Shown here in pieces: positions 7,912 through 30,157 of a DNA stretch of 64,000 nucleotides; within the stretch, counting starts at the first letter, position 1; every line of letters begins with the position of its first letter. Source of the DNA: Desulfoferula mesophila (GTDB lineage: Bacteria; Desulfobacterota; Desulfarculia; Desulfarculales; Desulfarculaceae); NCBI RefSeq assembly GCF_037076455.1, contig NZ_AP028679.1, positions 1,007,501-1,071,500 on the forward strand, written 5' to 3'. Made by a program: the position numbers and the translations under genes. The notes under the pieces were generated by a model. That model ran no database searches. It saw only the letters and a list, made by a program, of their open reading frames with translations, and had not been told where the DNA came from.

Positions 7912-8178
7912 ATGCGCAGGACCAGATTCAGCGAAACTCAGATCGTCAAAATTCTGAAAGAGGTGGAAGGAGGCAGGACCGCCAAGGAGGTCTGCCGGGA
8001 ATACGGTGTCAGCAGCGCCACCTACTACAAATGGAAGTCCAAATACGGGGGCATGGAGGCCTCGGACATCATTCGGCTCAAGGAGCTTGAAGAGGAAAAC
8101 CGGCGTCTGAAGCAAATGTACGCCGACCTGAGTCTCGAGAATCGGGCTCTGAAGGACGTCATCGAAAGAAAAATATAA
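7912..8178 (+). CDS. IS3-family transposase OrfA
   Basis: An 88-residue protein with a helix-turn-helix of the HTH_Tnp_1 type (RRTRFSETQIVKILKEVEGG, then YGVSSATYYKWKSKYGGME) followed by a leucine-zipper-like coiled coil (LKELEEENRRLKQMYADL). OrfA binds the element ends. Its 3' end, GAAAGAAAAATATAA, is A-rich, as expected for -1 slippage into orfB to give the OrfAB transposase. Confidence 0.92.
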   Translation: MRRTRFSETQIVKILKEVEGGRTAKEVCREYGVSSATYYKWKSKYGGMEASDIIRLKELEEENRRLKQMYADLSLENRALKDVIERKI

Positions 8179-8210
8179 GGCCAGCGGGTCGGCGCGATCT
8201 GGCTAAGTTC

Positions 8211-9020
8211 ATGTGCAAAGAGCACGGTCTGAGCATTCGCCGGGCCTGCCGCGCCCTGAGGCTGAGCCGGTCGGTTTATGCCTACCGACCCAAGCCCCGC
8301 GACGATGGTCCGATCATCGAGGCGCTGACTTCGCTGGCAGACAAATATCCCAGATACGGCTTTGCCAAACTGTTTCAAGTAATTCGGCGGGATGGACATG
8401 GCTGGAATCACAAGCGGGTGTACCGAGTGTACTGCGCCCTGAAGCTAAACCTTCGCAGGAAGGGTAAGAAGCGCCTGCCTACTCGTGATCCCCAGCCGCT
8501 TGCAGTGCCGGATCTGGCCAATATCTGCTGGTCGGTGGACTTCATGAGCGATGCCCTGTATGGCGGCCAGCGATTCAGGACCTTTAATGTGGTGGATGAT
8601 TTCAATCGAGAGGCCCTGGCCATAGAGGTGGACGTCAATCTCCCCGCCCAAAGGATAATCCGAGTGCTGGAGCGTATCGCTGCCTGGCGGGGCTACCCGT
8701 CCAGGCTGAGGCTGGACAACGGCCCGGAGCTGGTCAGTGTAGCTATGGCCCAATGGGCCGAGGAGCATAGTATCGATTTGGGTTTCACTCAGCCCGGCAA
8801 GCCCACCCAGAATTCATACATTGAACGCTTCAACCGGACCTATCGGGAAGAGGTGCTGGACCTTTACATATTTTCCCGTCTAAGCGAGGTGCGGGAAATC
8901 ACGGATCGCTGGCTCAAGGAGTACAACGAGGAACGCCCTCATGAGTCCCTCGGCAACCTGACACCAGCCGAATACCTCGCTATAAATTCACCCGAAGTTT
9001 CTACTGTTGACTGGCACTAA
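8211..9020 (+). CDS. IS3-family transposase OrfB (DDE integrase domain)
   Basis: A 269-residue OrfB with HTH_21 and rve domains. The DDE triad is visible in WSVDFMSDALYGG, RLDNGPELVS and YIERFNRTYREEVLD. Its frame is -1 to orfA and is open back to the slippery stretch near 8170, so it is probably made as an OrfAB fusion; the ATG at 8211 may also serve. The C-terminal end (ESLGNLTPAEYL) is complete, so the element looks intact. Confidence 0.92.
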   Translation: MCKEHGLSIRRACRALRLSRSVYAYRPKPRDDGPIIEALTSLADKYPRYGFAKLFQVIRRDGHGWNHKRVYRVYCALKLNLRRKGKKRLPTRDPQPLAVPDLANICWSVDFMSDALYGGQRFRTFNVVDDFNREALAIEVDVNLPAQRIIRVLERIAAWRGYPSRLRLDNGPELVSVAMAQWAEEHSIDLGFTQPGKPTQNSYIERFNRTYREEVLDLYIFSRLSEVREITDRWLKEYNEERPHESLGNLTPAEYLAINSPEVSTVDWH

Positions 9021-23384: not shown

Positions 23385-24164
23385 ATGAGCTATTTCGCGG
23401 GCATAGACGTGGGTTCCTTGAGCAGCGACGCGGCGGTCATCGACCAGGATGGCGACCTTAAAGGTTGGAGCGTGACCGAGACCGGGGCCCACAGCACCAA
23501 CGCGTCCGAGGCCGCCCTGGACGCGGCCCTGGCCATGGCCGGGCTGGGCCGGGACGACCTCAGCTTCGTGGTGGCCACCGGCTACGGCCGGGCCGCCGTG
23601 CCCCTGGCGGGCAAGAAGGTCACCGAGATCTCCTGCCACGCCCTGGGGGCCCATTCCCTGTTCCCGGACGTGGGCACGGTCATCGACATCGGCGGCCAGG
23701 ATTCCAAGGTGATTCGTTTGGGCCCGGGCGGCAAGGTGACCGACTTCGTGATGAACGACAAGTGCGCGGCGGGTACCGGCCGCTTCTTGGAGGTTATGGC
23801 CGCCAAGCTGGGGGTGGGCCTGGATGACCTGGGGAGGCTGTCCCTGGCCGCCGACGGCGAGGTGGGCATCTCCAGCGTGTGCACCGTGTTCGCCGAGAGC
23901 GAGGTGGTGTCCCTGGTGGCCCGCAACCAGCCCATAGCCCAGATCATCAAGGGCCTGCACCGCTCGGTGGTCAACCGGGTGGCGGCCATGACCGGCAACA
24001 TCGGGGTGCAGCCGCGGGTGATCATGAGCGGCGGGGTGGCCAAGAACGCCGGGGTGGTGGCCCTCATGGCCGAGCGCCTGGGCGTGGAGATCGCGGTGCC
24101 CGAGGAGCCCCAGATCGTGGGGGCCCTAGGCGCGGCGCTTATGGCGAAGAGGGAGGCGCAATGA
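23385..24164 (+). CDS. 2-hydroxyacyl-CoA dehydratase activase (BadF/BadG/HgdC family ATPase)
   Basis: A 259-residue ASKHA-fold ATPase. The phosphate-1 loop is FAGIDVGSLSSDAAVID, the second is VIDIGGQDSKVIRL, and the adenosine motif is VIMSGGVAKNAGVV. The two cluster cysteines are in NDKCAAGTGRFLEVM and SSVCTVFAESEV; they bridge one [4Fe-4S] cluster at the homodimer interface. It injects a low-potential electron into the dehydratase at the cost of ATP. Its presence confirms that the two upstream subunits are a radical enzyme. Its stop overlaps the next start (ATGA). Confidence 0.95.
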   Translation: MSYFAGIDVGSLSSDAAVIDQDGDLKGWSVTETGAHSTNASEAALDAALAMAGLGRDDLSFVVATGYGRAAVPLAGKKVTEISCHALGAHSLFPDVGTVIDIGGQDSKVIRLGPGGKVTDFVMNDKCAAGTGRFLEVMAAKLGVGLDDLGRLSLAADGEVGISSVCTVFAESEVVSLVARNQPIAQIIKGLHRSVVNRVAAMTGNIGVQPRVIMSGGVAKNAGVVALMAERLGVEIAVPEEPQIVGALGAALMAKREAQ

Positions 24165-25195
24165 ATCTAGTTCCCCTGGGCAGCACCGGACTCATGGTCT
24201 CTGAAGTGGGCTTCGGGGGCATCCCCATCACCCGCGTGACCGTGGACGAGGGCGTGGCCCTGGCCCGCGCCGCCTATGAGCGGGGCTGGCGCTTTTTCGA
24301 CACCGCGCGCATGTACGGCGACAGCGAAGTCAAGCTGGGCCAAGCCCTGGAGGGGGTGCGCGACCAGGTGGTGCTGGCCTCCAAGACCATGAAGCGCAGC
24401 GCCCAGGAGATGCGCGGGGAGATCGCGGCCAGCCTAAAGGCCCTGCGCACCACCTGGATCGACCTGTACCAGATCCACAACCTGGCCAAGCCCCAGGACC
24501 TGGAGGCGGTGCTGGCTCCTGGCGGGGCCTTGGAGGCGCTGCAAGAGGCCCAGGCCCAGGGCAGGGTGCGGCACATCGGCTTTTCCTCCCACCACCCGGA
24601 CACGGCCATCGCGGCCATCGAGACCGGACGCTTCGCCACGGCGCAGTTCGCCTGCAACTTCGTGGAGGACCAGGCGGCGGCGCGGGTCTTTGGCGCGGCC
24701 AAGAAACGGGGCATGGGCTGCATCGCCATGAAGCCCCTGGGCGGCGGCCTGCTGGAGCGGGCCGACCTGTGCTTCGCCTGGCTGCAGACCCAGGAGGGAG
24801 TGCTGCCCATACCGGGCATGCAGAGCCTGGCCGAGCTGGATCAGATCGCCGGGCTCTACGAGAACCGCCGGGAGTTGGGTCCGGCCGACCTGGCCGAAAT
24901 GGAGCGCATCCGCGCGGAGCTGGGCAGCCGCTTTTGCCACCGCTGCGGCTACTGCCTGCCTTGCCCCAACGGCGTCGACATTCCCAAGGTCATGCTGTTC
25001 ACCAGCCAGAAGCGGCGCTTCCCCCCGGCCCAGCTCATAGAAAAGACCCGCGAGGCCATCGCTCAGGCGGAGGCGGAGTGCCTCGAGTGCGGCGAATGCA
25101 CCGCGCGCTGCCCCTACGAGCTGCCCATCCCCGAGATGCTCGCCGAGATCACCGCCGACTTCCGCGACTTTTTGGCCCAGCACGGGCAGGCCTGA
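24161..25195 (+). CDS. Aldo/keto reductase with C-terminal ferredoxin domain
   Basis: A 344-residue protein. I choose the ATG at 24161, which overlaps the activase stop, although the frame is open far upstream. Residues 1-250 are an aldo/keto reductase barrel (LGSTGLMVSEVGFGGIPI, FFDTARMYGDSE with Asp and Tyr, VVLASKTMKR with Lys, and LYQIHNL in place of the Gln/His site). The C-terminus has two cysteine clusters, CHRCGYCLPCPNGVDIP and CLECGECTARCPYELPI, for [4Fe-4S] centres. Such reductases couple ferredoxin-like and NAD(P)H chemistry. It could make the hydroxy acid for, or supply electrons to, the dehydratase. Confidence 0.9.
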   Translation: MNLVPLGSTGLMVSEVGFGGIPITRVTVDEGVALARAAYERGWRFFDTARMYGDSEVKLGQALEGVRDQVVLASKTMKRSAQEMRGEIAASLKALRTTWIDLYQIHNLAKPQDLEAVLAPGGALEALQEAQAQGRVRHIGFSSHHPDTAIAAIETGRFATAQFACNFVEDQAAARVFGAAKKRGMGCIAMKPLGGGLLERADLCFAWLQTQEGVLPIPGMQSLAELDQIAGLYENRRELGPADLAEMERIRAELGSRFCHRCGYCLPCPNGVDIPKVMLFTSQKRRFPPAQLIEKTREAIAQAEAECLECGECTARCPYELPIPEMLAEITADFRDFLAQHGQA

Positions 25196-25202
25196 AAAGA
25201 AA

Positions 25203-25227
25203 ACGCCCTCGGCATGACCGGGGGCGT
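25203..25227. terminator. Terminator after the dehydratase operon
   Basis: ACGCCCTCGG and CCGGGGGCGT pair around a CATGA loop with TAAAAA following; on the other strand TTTTCTT follows. It lies between the operon end and the convergent NYN gene and may serve both. Confidence 0.7.
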
Positions 25228-25257
25228 AAAAAGCTGCCGTCTGATTGGCGGAGCAGG

Positions 25258-26358
25258 TCAGCCCTCGAGAGGCTCCTCTTCGTCTTCGTACTCCAGGGCG
25301 CGCACGTCGCGGGCCGCCCCGGCCTTGCCGCCCACGGGCAGGGTCTTGACCTCGAAAACCACCTCGCGGCCCTCTTCCAGGGTCTCGAAGTCCAGGCCCT
25401 CGAGGTCGCTGAGGTGGAAGAAAAAACTCATCCCGTCATCGGTGGTGACGAAGCCGTAGCCCTTGTCTTCCTTTTTGAACTCCACCACCCCTTCCAGGGT
25501 CTCGCCGATCACGGGCAGGCCGGCCTGGGGTCCGTAGTCAATCTGGTCGTCATCCTCATAGGTGGAGGTGACCACGCTGGTGACCCGGCGCTGGGCATAG
25601 GCGGCCCGGCAGGCATCGCAGTAGACCGGTTCGCCCCGGCGGGGGCGGTAGGTGGTCTGGAAGCGGCGTTCGCCCTCGTGTTCGGGTGACTGGCACTCCA
25701 GCCATTGAGGCTCGTAGCGCAGCTCCAGCTCCTCGATGTGGTCGTCCATCCACAGGGTGTCGTAGTCCTTGACCCGCTCGCGGTCCTCGGGGTCGGCCAA
25801 CTCCTGGGCGCAGGAGGAGCGCACGCTCACCAACAGCACCCGCTTGCCCAACTGACGGACCGTCTGCAACACCGGGGTGAAGTCGCGGTCGCCCAACACG
25901 GCGGCGGCGATGTCCATGCCAAAGGGCATGGCCGCCTGGTAGAGCATCTTGGAGGCCAGGGCGATGTCCACGCACTTTTCCCGGGGTTGGAAGCTGTCGG
26001 CGGGGTCGCGGTCGGCTTGGCGCACCCGGCGGCCCCGGAAGTCGATGTTGAACAGCTCGGTGTCGTAGTGGTAGTCCTCACGCAGGAGCTTGTAAAACTC
26101 GTTCTGCCGGGTGATCAACCCCTCGTCCAGGTGGTCGTAGTTGGTGGGCAGGCTGGCGAAGATATGGTTGCGCACCACGTCGATGCCCGAGGGGTCCACC
26201 CCCAGGCGCTCGGCCAACTCGCGAGCCACCACCTGGGGCAGCACGCCGTAGTCGATTTTGAACTCACCCTTGCCGCTTTGCTCGGCCAGGCGAGGGAGGG
26301 TGCGATAGAGCCAGGTTCCATCAATAAAGATCATCACTTTGTACATCTTGATCCCCAT
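25258..26358 (-). CDS. NYN-domain nuclease with zinc ribbon and C-terminal cold-shock domain
   Basis: A 366-residue three-part protein. Residues about 6-215 form a NYN/PIN-like RNase domain with the acidic residues in VMIFIDGTWLYR, CVDIALASKML and AAVLGDRDFTPVL. Residues about 225-265 hold a putative zinc ribbon (WLECQSPEHEG, then GEPVYCDACRAAYAQRR). Residues about 290-350 are a cold-shock domain (GVVEFKKEDKGYGFVTTDDG, then FFFHLSDL). This suggests a soluble RNA-binding ribonuclease. The start may be the first ATG or the one at 26346 (MYKVMIF). It follows the acyl-CoA ligase gene by 172 bases in the same direction. Confidence 0.82.
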   Translation of the reverse strand: MGIKMYKVMIFIDGTWLYRTLPRLAEQSGKGEFKIDYGVLPQVVARELAERLGVDPSGIDVVRNHIFASLPTNYDHLDEGLITRQNEFYKLLREDYHYDTELFNIDFRGRRVRQADRDPADSFQPREKCVDIALASKMLYQAAMPFGMDIAAAVLGDRDFTPVLQTVRQLGKRVLLVSVRSSCAQELADPEDRERVKDYDTLWMDDHIEELELRYEPQWLECQSPEHEGERRFQTTYRPRRGEPVYCDACRAAYAQRRVTSVVTSTYEDDDQIDYGPQAGLPVIGETLEGVVEFKKEDKGYGFVTTDDGMSFFFHLSDLEGLDFETLEEGREVVFEVKTLPVGGKAGAARDVRALEYEDEEEPLEG

Positions 26359-26530
26359 GTCTTGCTAAATGTTTATCTCGCCTAAACTTTTGGGGCGAGG
26401 CTTCACGGGGGACGCGGGGCTGGGCAGGTGGAGGGAGAAACAGAATTAACGCGCCCAACGCGAACCCTAATTTTATTAAGTAAACCCCAGGGCAGGGCGG
26501 CTGTCAAATGCCACCTTTAAGTAATCGGTA

Positions 26531-28210
26531 CTATTCTTGCGTGGCCCATTTGGCCTCTTCCTCCTCGCGCAGAGAGCGCCGCAGCACCTTGCCGATCATG
26601 CTCTTGGGCAACTCCGCGCGAATTTCCACCTCCCTGGGCACCATGTAGGCCGAAAGGTTCTCTTTGCAAAACGCCTTAATCTCCTCCGGCGTGGCGCTTT
26701 GGCCCTTTTTGAGCACCACGAAGGCCTTGATGAACTCGCCCTTGGTGGGGTGGGGCAGGCCCACGGCCACCGCCTCGGCCACCGCGGGATGCTGGTGCAA
26801 GACCTCGTCGATCTCGCTGGGGAACACGTTGAAGCCGCTGACGATCACCAGATCCTTTTTGCGGTCCACTATGGTGATGAAGCCGTCGGCGTCCATGACC
26901 CCGATGTCGCCGGTGAACAGCCAGCCGTCCCGGATGGTGCGGGCGGTGAGCTCCGGCTGGTTCAGATAGCCGGTCATCAAATCCGGCCCGCGCAGCACGA
27001 TCTCCCCGGCCTCGCCGGTGGGCATTTCCTTGGTCCCGGTGTCCAGGTCCATGATGCGCCACTCGACGTCCGGGAAGGGGATGCCGATGGTGCCGGGCTT
27101 TTTCGGGCCGCGCAGGGGATTGCAGCTGATGGCCGTGACCGCCTCGGTAAGGCCGTAGCCTTCGATGAGCTGGGCCCCGGTGCGCTTTTCAAACTCCTGC
27201 TGCACCGCCTGGGGCAGGGGAGCGGCGCCCACGAAGATGCCCCTGAGGCTCTTGAGGTCGCACTTGTCGATCTCGGGGCTCTCCTTGAGAGCGATGAACA
27301 TGGTGGGCACCCCGGCGAAAATCGAGGGGCGCGCCTTGTCGATGGTCTTGAGCACCTCGCCGGCCTCGAAGCGGGGCAGCAGGGTGACGGTGCCGCCCTG
27401 GGCCAGGGGGGCGTTCATGCACACGCTCATGCCGAAGCCGTGGAACAGGGGCAGCACGGCCAGCAGGGAGTCGTCCTGGTCCATGTTGACCCAGGCGTGG
27501 GCTTGGGTGAGGTTGGCGATAAGCGCCCGGTGGGAGAGCATGATGCCCTTGCTGATGCCGGTGGTGCCGCCGGAATAGATGAGCGCGGCCATGGATTCGG
27601 GGTCGATCTGCACTTGGGGGGCCTGGGCCTTGAGGGCCAGGAGCCCCTTGAAGCTCCAGGTGGCCTTGTCGCGCCCGATCAGCGGTTTGGGCAGGGATTT
27701 GTCCAGCGCGCGCTTGATGGGGTAGAGCAGGTTTTTGGGGAAGGGCAAAAAGTCCTGCAAGCCGGTGTAGACCACCAGGTCCAGGTCGATCTGCTTGCGG
27801 ACGTTGCTCACCCGCTGGCTGAGCAGGTCCAGGGCGATCACCGCCTTGGCCCCGGAATCCTGGAACTTGAAGATCAGTTCCCGCTCCACGTTGAGCGGGT
27901 TCATGAGCATGGCCGTGGCCCCCAGGCGCAGCACGGCCAGATAGGAAATCACGAACTGGGGGCAGTTGGGCATGAGCAGGGCCACCCGGTGGCCGGGCTC
28001 CACCCCCCGGGCGGCCAGACCCCCGGCCAACTCTTCCGCCAGGCTGAACAGCTGCCGGAAGGTAAGCTCCTTGCCCAAAAAGCTTAGGGCGATCTTGCGG
28101 GGCACCTTGGCCGCGCTTTGGGCCATCAGGCTGTATAGGTCAGTGGAGGGGTAGTCCAGGTGCCGGGGCACCTCGGGGTCGTAGCGTCTCAACCACGGAA
28201 ATTCAGCCAT
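26531..28210 (-). CDS. Long-chain fatty acid / acyl-CoA ligase (AMP-forming)
   Basis: A 559-residue ANL-family ligase that activates a carboxylic acid with ATP and CoA. The P-loop-like A3 motif is ALIYSGGTTGISKG, A5 is LIEGYGLTEAV, A7 is GWLFTGDIGVMDADGF, A8 is DRKKDLVIVSGFNVFPSEID, and the catalytic Lys is in PKSMIGKVLRRSL. Overall it resembles FadD, but substrate length cannot be read from the sequence. The start follows AAGGTGG. It is the upstream gene of the ligase-NYN pair. Confidence 0.9.
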   Translation of the reverse strand: MAEFPWLRRYDPEVPRHLDYPSTDLYSLMAQSAAKVPRKIALSFLGKELTFRQLFSLAEELAGGLAARGVEPGHRVALLMPNCPQFVISYLAVLRLGATAMLMNPLNVERELIFKFQDSGAKAVIALDLLSQRVSNVRKQIDLDLVVYTGLQDFLPFPKNLLYPIKRALDKSLPKPLIGRDKATWSFKGLLALKAQAPQVQIDPESMAALIYSGGTTGISKGIMLSHRALIANLTQAHAWVNMDQDDSLLAVLPLFHGFGMSVCMNAPLAQGGTVTLLPRFEAGEVLKTIDKARPSIFAGVPTMFIALKESPEIDKCDLKSLRGIFVGAAPLPQAVQQEFEKRTGAQLIEGYGLTEAVTAISCNPLRGPKKPGTIGIPFPDVEWRIMDLDTGTKEMPTGEAGEIVLRGPDLMTGYLNQPELTARTIRDGWLFTGDIGVMDADGFITIVDRKKDLVIVSGFNVFPSEIDEVLHQHPAVAEAVAVGLPHPTKGEFIKAFVVLKKGQSATPEEIKAFCKENLSAYMVPREVEIRAELPKSMIGKVLRRSLREEEEAKWATQE

Positions 28211-28747: not shown

Positions 28748-30157
28748 TTGCTAGAACAAATAACCATGATGACTATGCCTTCCCAACAGGAATGCCAGGC
28801 CGTGTTGGACATGGCCAGTTTGGTGGAAAAAGCCCTTGATCTGGAGTCGGTTCTGGAGGGGATTCTCCTGCGTCTGGACCAGGCCCTGGATCTGCGGGGA
28901 GCCCGTTTTTGGTTGTGGGAGGCGGGAGACGCTCCTTGGGTGGCCACCGGTTTGGGCCAGGACCATGACCTGGGCCCGGACGCGGTAAACCAAAGTTTGG
29001 TCATCGGCGCGCCGCTGTTGCCCCTTGGCCGCGAGTCGGGCCGCCTGGTGGCCGCCCTGCGCGACAACGAGCCCGACCAAATCAGCGCCCGCAGGCTGGT
29101 AAACGCGGCGGCCCAACTGGCCAGCTCGGTCTTGGCCCTGCACCGCGATTTGTCCCTGCGCCGCCACACCGGGGAGAACGCGGCCGAACTGGACCCCACG
29201 GCCACCCATCTTTTCCTGGCGGGCCAGAGCGAGGCCATGGTGCGGGCCCAGGAGCTGATCAGCAAGGCGGCCCCCAGCGAGGCCACGGTGTTGTTGTTGG
29301 GGCCCCTGGGGGTGGGCAAGGCCCTGGCCGCCCAGGTGGTGCATCGCCTCAGCCAGCGCCGGGAAGGGCCGCTGTTGCACCTGGATTGCGCGGCCTGGGG
29401 GCCGGCGGAGCTGGAGCGCAGGCTGTTCGGGCGTCCGACCGGCTCTGGCTCCAGCGCGGACAGCCTTTTGGAGCAAGCCACCGGGGGCACCTTGTATCTG
29501 CAAGAGGTGGGCAGCCTGAGCCTGCCCCTGCAGGCCAAGCTGTTGCAGGTTTTGCAAGAGGGCGAATACGAGCCGGCGGGCGGCGGGGACATACGCCACG
29601 CCCAGGTGCGGGTGGTGGCTTCTTCCACCAAAGACCTGGAGCGCAACGTGGCCCAGGGCTCCTTCCGCCAAGATCTTTTCTATCGCCTGGGGGTGATGCC
29701 CATTCATCTGCCTCCGCTCAGACAACGGCGCGAAGACGTCAGCCTGCTGGCAGAATATTTCCTGGGCCGCAACCGCGAGCAACAGGCCCCGCACCTCAAC
29801 CCGCAGGCCCAGAGCGTGCTCACCCACTACGCCTGGCCCGGTAACGTGGCCGAGTTGGAGAACCTCTGCGGCCGCCTGGCCCTGTTGACCAACGCCCCGG
29901 AGATCGGCCTGGACGATCTGCCGTCCTTCCTGTTCTACCGGGAGGCCGCCGGTTCCCAGGAGCAGCAGCTTTCGCGTCTGGAAGAGATAGAAAGGCAGGA
30001 AGTGGTGGCCGCGCTGGAGCGCAACAACTGGGTGCAATCCCACGCCGCCGCCGAGCTGGGCCTCACGCTGCGCCAAATAGGCTACCGGGTAAAGAAATTC
30101 GGCCTGGAGGGAGCCATAAAAAAAGGCCGCAGCCGGGCCCAGAGCGCCACTCTCTAA
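28748..30157 (+). CDS. NifA/NorR-like regulator: GAF, degenerate AAA+, Fis-type HTH
   Basis: A 469-residue protein with the architecture of NifA/NorR activators. Residues 15-140 resemble a GAF domain. Residues about 158-390 are the AAA+ region, and 425-455 a Fis-type helix-turn-helix (AAAELGLTLRQIGYRVKKFGL). The AAA+ part is abnormal: Walker A is GPLGVGKA at 185-192; the loop that should read GAFTGA is GSGSSA at 232-237 and the insert is shortened; Walker B reads LYLQE at 249-253, with Gln for the Mg-binding Asp. It is therefore unlikely to open sigma-54 promoters in the normal way. It lies 220 bases upstream of hcp, the likely target. Confidence 0.85.
   Translation: MLEQITMMTMPSQQECQAVLDMASLVEKALDLESVLEGILLRLDQALDLRGARFWLWEAGDAPWVATGLGQDHDLGPDAVNQSLVIGAPLLPLGRESGRLVAALRDNEPDQISARRLVNAAAQLASSVLALHRDLSLRRHTGENAAELDPTATHLFLAGQSEAMVRAQELISKAAPSEATVLLLGPLGVGKALAAQVVHRLSQRREGPLLHLDCAAWGPAELERRLFGRPTGSGSSADSLLEQATGGTLYLQEVGSLSLPLQAKLLQVLQEGEYEPAGGGDIRHAQVRVVASSTKDLERNVAQGSFRQDLFYRLGVMPIHLPPLRQRREDVSLLAEYFLGRNREQQAPHLNPQAQSVLTHYAWPGNVAELENLCGRLALLTNAPEIGLDDLPSFLFYREAAGSQEQQLSRLEEIERQEVVAALERNNWVQSHAAAELGLTLRQIGYRVKKFGLEGAIKKGRSRAQSATL

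Follow-up and report, generated by a model that had tools for sequence, protein, structure and literature searches.

Few bacterial NYN nucleases have, to our knowledge, known targets; VPA0982 (PDB 2qip) and LabA are, as we take it, bacterial LK-nuclease/DUF88 (PF01936) proteins. RNase II/R is an exonuclease with an RNB catalytic domain, and its cold-shock domains (CSDs) guide single-stranded RNA. These CSDs adjoin the nuclease, according to PMC4229858. The NYN domain of MARF1 is described in PMC6294520 as an endoribonuclease whose cleavage of single-stranded (U)30 is improved by Mn or Mg; its acidic patch comprises Asp358, Asp426, Asp427 and Asp452, and a D426A/D427A double mutant is much weaker. 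PMC2848206, from 2010, describes bacterial OST-HTH proteins that bear OST-HTH after the nuclease. It also notes that this nuclease domain can be fused to Zn-knuckles and that there are bacterial OST-HTH proteins containing an S1/cold-shock OB fold; its accessible text holds no description of a finger and a CSD together on one nuclease lacking OST-HTH. A preliminary description of the locus studied here knew of no characterised bacterial enzyme with its order of domains, and we found no characterised NYN–CSD enzyme of that order in open-licence papers, but fusions of such modules had already been noted in 2010.

The window (the whole 64,000-nucleotide stretch of Desulfoferula mesophila contig NZ_AP028679.1 that was analysed) encodes a protein that is three modules plus a loose tether (Table 1). 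Seven orthologues, 71–93% identical, preserve the frame and every part. In a simple Nei–Gojobori count of the window gene against these seven, dN/dS was 0.05–0.42 for the NYN domain, 0.07–0.29 for the finger and 0.04–0.42 for the CSD, below 0.43 for every module in all seven comparisons; for the linker it was 0.17–1.76, above all three modules each time. Because frame and parts are kept in the seven orthologues and linker dN/dS is highest in 7/7, this is a real gene and not a chance open reading frame (ORF). Linker identity to the orthologues was 23–77%, against 71–97% for the three modules, and the linker was the least confident inter-module part of the predicted structure, with pLDDT below 50 at residues 262–279. 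The model used is a second AlphaFold model (mean pLDDT 78.9), superseding a first (pLDDT 63.6) whose fold search gave no NYN chain among the best 50 matches listed. Judging from the sequence, M5 (26346) rather than M1 (26358) may be the start codon: in three orthologues (G007, G005 and G004) DN directly precedes MYKVM in the frame, with no Met where M1 stands, and a GGGGA lies upstream of the M5 codon.

Table 1 Features of the NYN–finger–CSD locus in window coordinates.
Feature	Position	Strand	Evidence
NYN–zinc finger–CSD protein gene, 366 aa	25258..26358	(-)	ORF, Pfam, orthologues; possible start 26346
NYN (LabA/LK-nuclease, DUF88-type) domain, residues 1-213	25720..26358	(-)	PF01936, 2qip, MARF1 NYN
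Putative zinc finger, C222-x4-H227-x19-C247-x2-C250, residues 214-258	25585..25719	(-)	Ligands, model, weak PF23477
Variable acidic linker, residues 259-284	25507..25584	(-)	Low pLDDT, low identity
Cold-shock domain, residues 285-355, RNP1-like KGYGF and RNP2-like FFFH	25294..25506	(-)	PF00313, CspA/CspB/CspE structures
Terminator-like hairpin with T tail, just 3' of the gene	25203..25215	(-)	Weak

A Pfam scan matched PF01936 at residues 7–191 with 34.1 bits (cut-off 24.2), and both PF01936 and PF00313 matched all eight genus sequences, the window's own counted. The acidic residues of the NYN domain are D13, E127, D131, D157 and D159. Four of them (D13, D131, D157 and D159) were invariant in 15/15 rows of one alignment (A3) and in 13/13 rows of another (A4), which included eight NYN proteins 17–28% identical to the window protein and from which L090 and L099 had been dropped beforehand. 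When the single protein or alignment A2 was searched against PDB sequences, matches were confined to the CSD region, and a NYN-only profile was needed to reach 2qip (E 4.6e-15), on which each of the four residues falls on an Asp. The structure prediction that the preliminary description had proposed as a check matched 2qip (Z 17.5, 160 residues) and the MARF1 NYN domain (Z 14.4, 147–148 residues), and so bore out the claim of a NYN/PIN-like domain with its acidic residues. MARF1 was not significant in the NYN-only profile search (E 0.37 and 0.44); in that weak profile alignment, D131 and D157 pair with MARF1 aspartates that we take to be D426 and D452 (numbering from PMC6294520). The same weak alignment places I132 at MARF1 D427 and D159 opposite a MARF1 Asn, and D13 would correspond to D358 on motif grounds alone, the profile alignment not extending to that stretch of MARF1. 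We predict from model and sequence that the NYN domain has a PIN-like fold with an acidic catalytic set, and RNase activity. A second NYN match in the genome, at G000:C1:3439607-3440035 (L052), was stronger (135.4 bits) and lies in a 277-aa frame with no CSD.

The middle module had been called a zinc ribbon, a type of fold that has two knuckles on β-hairpins and usually a CxxC...CxxC pattern. Its CxxC and conserved candidate ligands stand, but the ribbon label is imprecise and not supported. C222, H227, C247 and C250 and their spacing were invariant in 9/9 homologues, including the most distant orthologue (G061, 42% identity), and the candidate ligand site consists of one CxxC (C247/C250) plus a C-x4-H, two CxxC knuckles being absent. 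In the model, a hairpin of strands 218–221 and 232–235 is followed by a helix (248–263) that starts at the CxxC, which argues against a ribbon. The sole Pfam lead was PF23477 (zf_Tbcl_2, a probable treble-clef finger), which scored below its cut-off of 27, with 14.1 bits for the whole protein and 17.8 bits for residues 214–260 alone, and which recurred below cut-off in all eight genus sequences and G061. Conservation of the cysteines is by itself no proof of a metal site, because C129 and C183, outside the finger, are likewise invariant in 9/9 homologues. The module is perhaps a treble-clef-like CHCC finger that would bind zinc.

The C-terminal region does score as a CSD, as the preliminary description had it (PF00313, residues 289–352; 47.1 bits, cut-off 27). 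Foldseek with the model returned CspE, CspA and CspB-type structures (E about 3e-6 to 1e-5), the OB fold matching CspE and CspA with a TM score by target of about 0.8. In an alignment to CspB, five of the seven positions of the CspA/CspB RNA-binding surface retain the residue or an aromatic: F294 stands for the Trp, Y301 and F303 are the RNP1 aromatics, and F313 and H315 are kept. Two surface Phe are replaced: K295 takes the place of the second KWF aromatic, and L316 that of the Phe following the His. The CSD of G061 is degenerate, at 16.3 bits and below the cut-off of 27, so the CSD may be non-essential to function.

The domain-architecture search that had likewise been proposed found the NYN domain and the CSD above their Pfam cut-offs, and the full-length protein in all eight genus genomes and G061. 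Among 63 genomes of the class, none of the 12 other family genomes and one of the remaining 43 (G061, E 5.8e-103) had it, and in the order of G061 it occurred in 1/41 genomes, G061 itself; some of the relatives counted as lacking it have incomplete genomes. Eight of 395 sampled phylum genomes matched at a limit of E 1e-12, five genus genomes with the full-length protein and three others with CSD-only matches, and a contig search with the single protein, a method that reaches close relatives only, gave four loci 84–93% identical.

NYN–CSD proteins without the finger were found in a sister genus of the same family (L009, in G014) and in two other families (L100, in G317, and L101, in G097), with an N-terminal NYN domain and a C-terminal CSD both above Pfam cut-offs. 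They differ from the window protein in lacking a finger, and their NYN parts are 18–22% identical to it; L009 is 50–51% identical to the other two, so we regard the three as a separate NYN–CSD family. A further genome (G435) holds a full-length match 82% identical to L101, and in the class of G097 this family occurred in 2/192 genomes. PF01936 matched in 149 of 297 sampled phylum genomes; in a selection of loci from these (the 30 best NYN loci and 13 longer-frame NYN stretches) our own CSD profile revealed no further NYN–CSD protein, although this profile missed the degenerate CSD of G061 and similar ones would escape it too.

In all five neighbourhoods read among the seven other genus genomes (G004 and G005 were left out), the gene lay between homologues of an aldo/keto reductase (24161-25195) and a sigma-54 regulator (28748-30157). 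An operon or functional link with the upstream acyl-CoA ligase was rejected, its homologue adjoining in 3/5 and not being seen there in G002 and G003. No partner or substrate-indicating neighbour gene was seen in these five neighbourhoods, and G061 shared no neighbours within 12 kb except for a single weak hit against a remote ORF of the window. The region held 3 terminator-like sites, where shuffled sequences gave 1.5 on average. A scan of 25150-26700 gave no sigma-70 promoter; a TTGACA near 26503 was spotted by eye.

We also rejected a mobile origin, as searches of plasmids (E limit 1e-8), phages (E limit 1e-5) and viral contigs turned up no match to the protein, the viral search using two short patterns only and with 0/260 stretches confirmed. 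The L009 and L100 proteins likewise had no plasmid match. Elsewhere in the window, an Rfam isrN match (8177-8319, (-) strand, 57.7 bits) overlaps the start of ORF 8211-9020 (+), an IS3-like transposase as read from its sequence; the isrN family is probably matching insertion-sequence DNA here and not a real sRNA.

The window gene gave the single PF00313 match (E <=0.001) in its genome, which is one contig and 98.7% complete, and each of the eight genus genomes had one such match, always in this NYN–finger–CSD gene. Across the 63 class genomes, some of them incomplete, 18 had a PF00313 match (G061, with its degenerate CSD, not counted), and short-frame CspA-like matches occurred in only three (G021, G031 and G036), leaving 60 with no short-frame match. 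In the phylum sample, 176/198 genomes had a CSD match, mostly strong and often several. On these sequence counts the lineage seems to manage without the usual cold-shock proteins; one narrow literature search turned up no publication on cold shock in Desulfarculaceae. A genus whose only CSD sits inside a nuclease offers a clean test of what a CSD is for without a separate Csp.

Other CSD fusions were seen in passing. Three genera share a protein (L112, L114 and L115) that starts with a CSD and whose C-terminal region, conserved and helical-looking (SLFFEAA...GFFRY), to our mind recalls a Csm2-like CRISPR subunit. L116 1247-1912 (-) resembles, as read from the sequence, a ribosome hibernation factor joined to a C-terminal CSD, and among solved structures PDB 9t0z is a hibernation factor that includes a CSD-like part. 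In family member G013, L014 256-1710 (-) carries an N-terminal CSD on an apparent ATPase.

We consider it probable, with some reserve, that the window protein is a stand-alone, vertically kept cellular endoribonuclease, metal-dependent and acting on single strands, whose CSD and finger hold RNA. The NYN domain would bind a divalent metal through D13, D131, D157 and D159 and would cleave single-stranded RNA, while the CHCC finger beside the catalytic domain and the CSD, tethered by its flexible acidic linker, would bind and hold the RNA, much as in RNase II/R, whose CSDs serve an unrelated nuclease. That the CSD would deliver single-stranded RNA to the nuclease, as first suggested, is by analogy a sound inference. 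As the gene is fixed in the genus and holds the genome's only recognisable CSD, its role would probably lie in general RNA turnover or quality control and not in defence. A bolder reading, which we offer tentatively and hold to be possible rather than likely, is that, in a lineage lacking the usual CspA-type RNA chaperones, the sole CSD of the genus serves to load RNA onto a dedicated NYN endoribonuclease, so that the only CSD protein of these cells works by cutting, not melting, RNA.

A structure- or ribosome-specific RNase, whose NYN domain would cut one defined RNA and whose CSD and finger would dock on rRNA or ribosomes, strikes us as unlikely. Rae1/YacP cuts mRNA at the ribosome. This bacterial protein is listed among the structural relatives of NYN in the MARF1 paper (PMC6294520), and a CSD is found also in the hibernation factor 9t0z and in the apparent one at the related locus L116, but the NYN domain of the window protein resembles LabA/DUF88 2qip and, in the stretches read, none of the conserved neighbours was a ribosomal or RNA gene.

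More doubtful still is a non-catalytic RNA-binding regulator, in which the NYN domain would bind without cutting and the protein would replace the missing CspA-type chaperones. The uniqueness of its CSD in the genome and the lack of short-frame CSD matches in 60/63 class genomes would fit such a role. An acidic set invariant across very distant NYN relatives, however, is unexpected for a dead enzyme, and the 12 other family genomes lack the protein: nine show no CSD match at all, and eight have none, whether above the cut-off or, at E 0.001, under it, except in unrelated frames. With the protein absent from these genomes and a CSD from most, the lineage seems able to dispense with a Csp substitute.

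We set aside a defence system, since the locus is fixed across the genus and PADLOC yielded nothing beyond a CSD model and a weak match of the candidate family HEC-09 to the NYN motif (E 1.8e-4). That HEC-09 match is what speaks for a defence or toxin-type RNase; the protein's presence in 8/8 genus genomes, at one fixed place in the five read, its four scanned window neighbours (all metabolic or regulatory) and the lack of phage or plasmid matches make this very improbable. A chance ORF or a wrongly joined frame, which the high GC content of the window and its many long overlapping ORFs might favour, is already refuted by the conservation of the modules in eight genomes and G061 and by their low dN/dS against the seven orthologues, and its probability is negligible.

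Set beside the known systems, the endoribonuclease that we favour has the same predicted fold and acidic motifs in its NYN domain as LK-nuclease/DUF88 proteins such as VPA0982 (2qip). It differs from the bacterial OST-HTH proteins in bearing a CHCC finger and a CSD in place of their OST-HTH; a Pfam scan (E up to 1) gave no match to OST-HTH (LOTUS), nor to RNB. Whereas RNase II/R combines N-terminal CSDs with RNB, the CSD here is C-terminal. MARF1 (Limkain b1), a demonstrated endoribonuclease, likewise joins a NYN fold to RNA-binding modules, but is eukaryotic. The parts are known, and their NYN–finger–CSD combination is rare; NYN nucleases being common, a member with a built-in predicted single-strand RNA-binding arm is convenient to assay.
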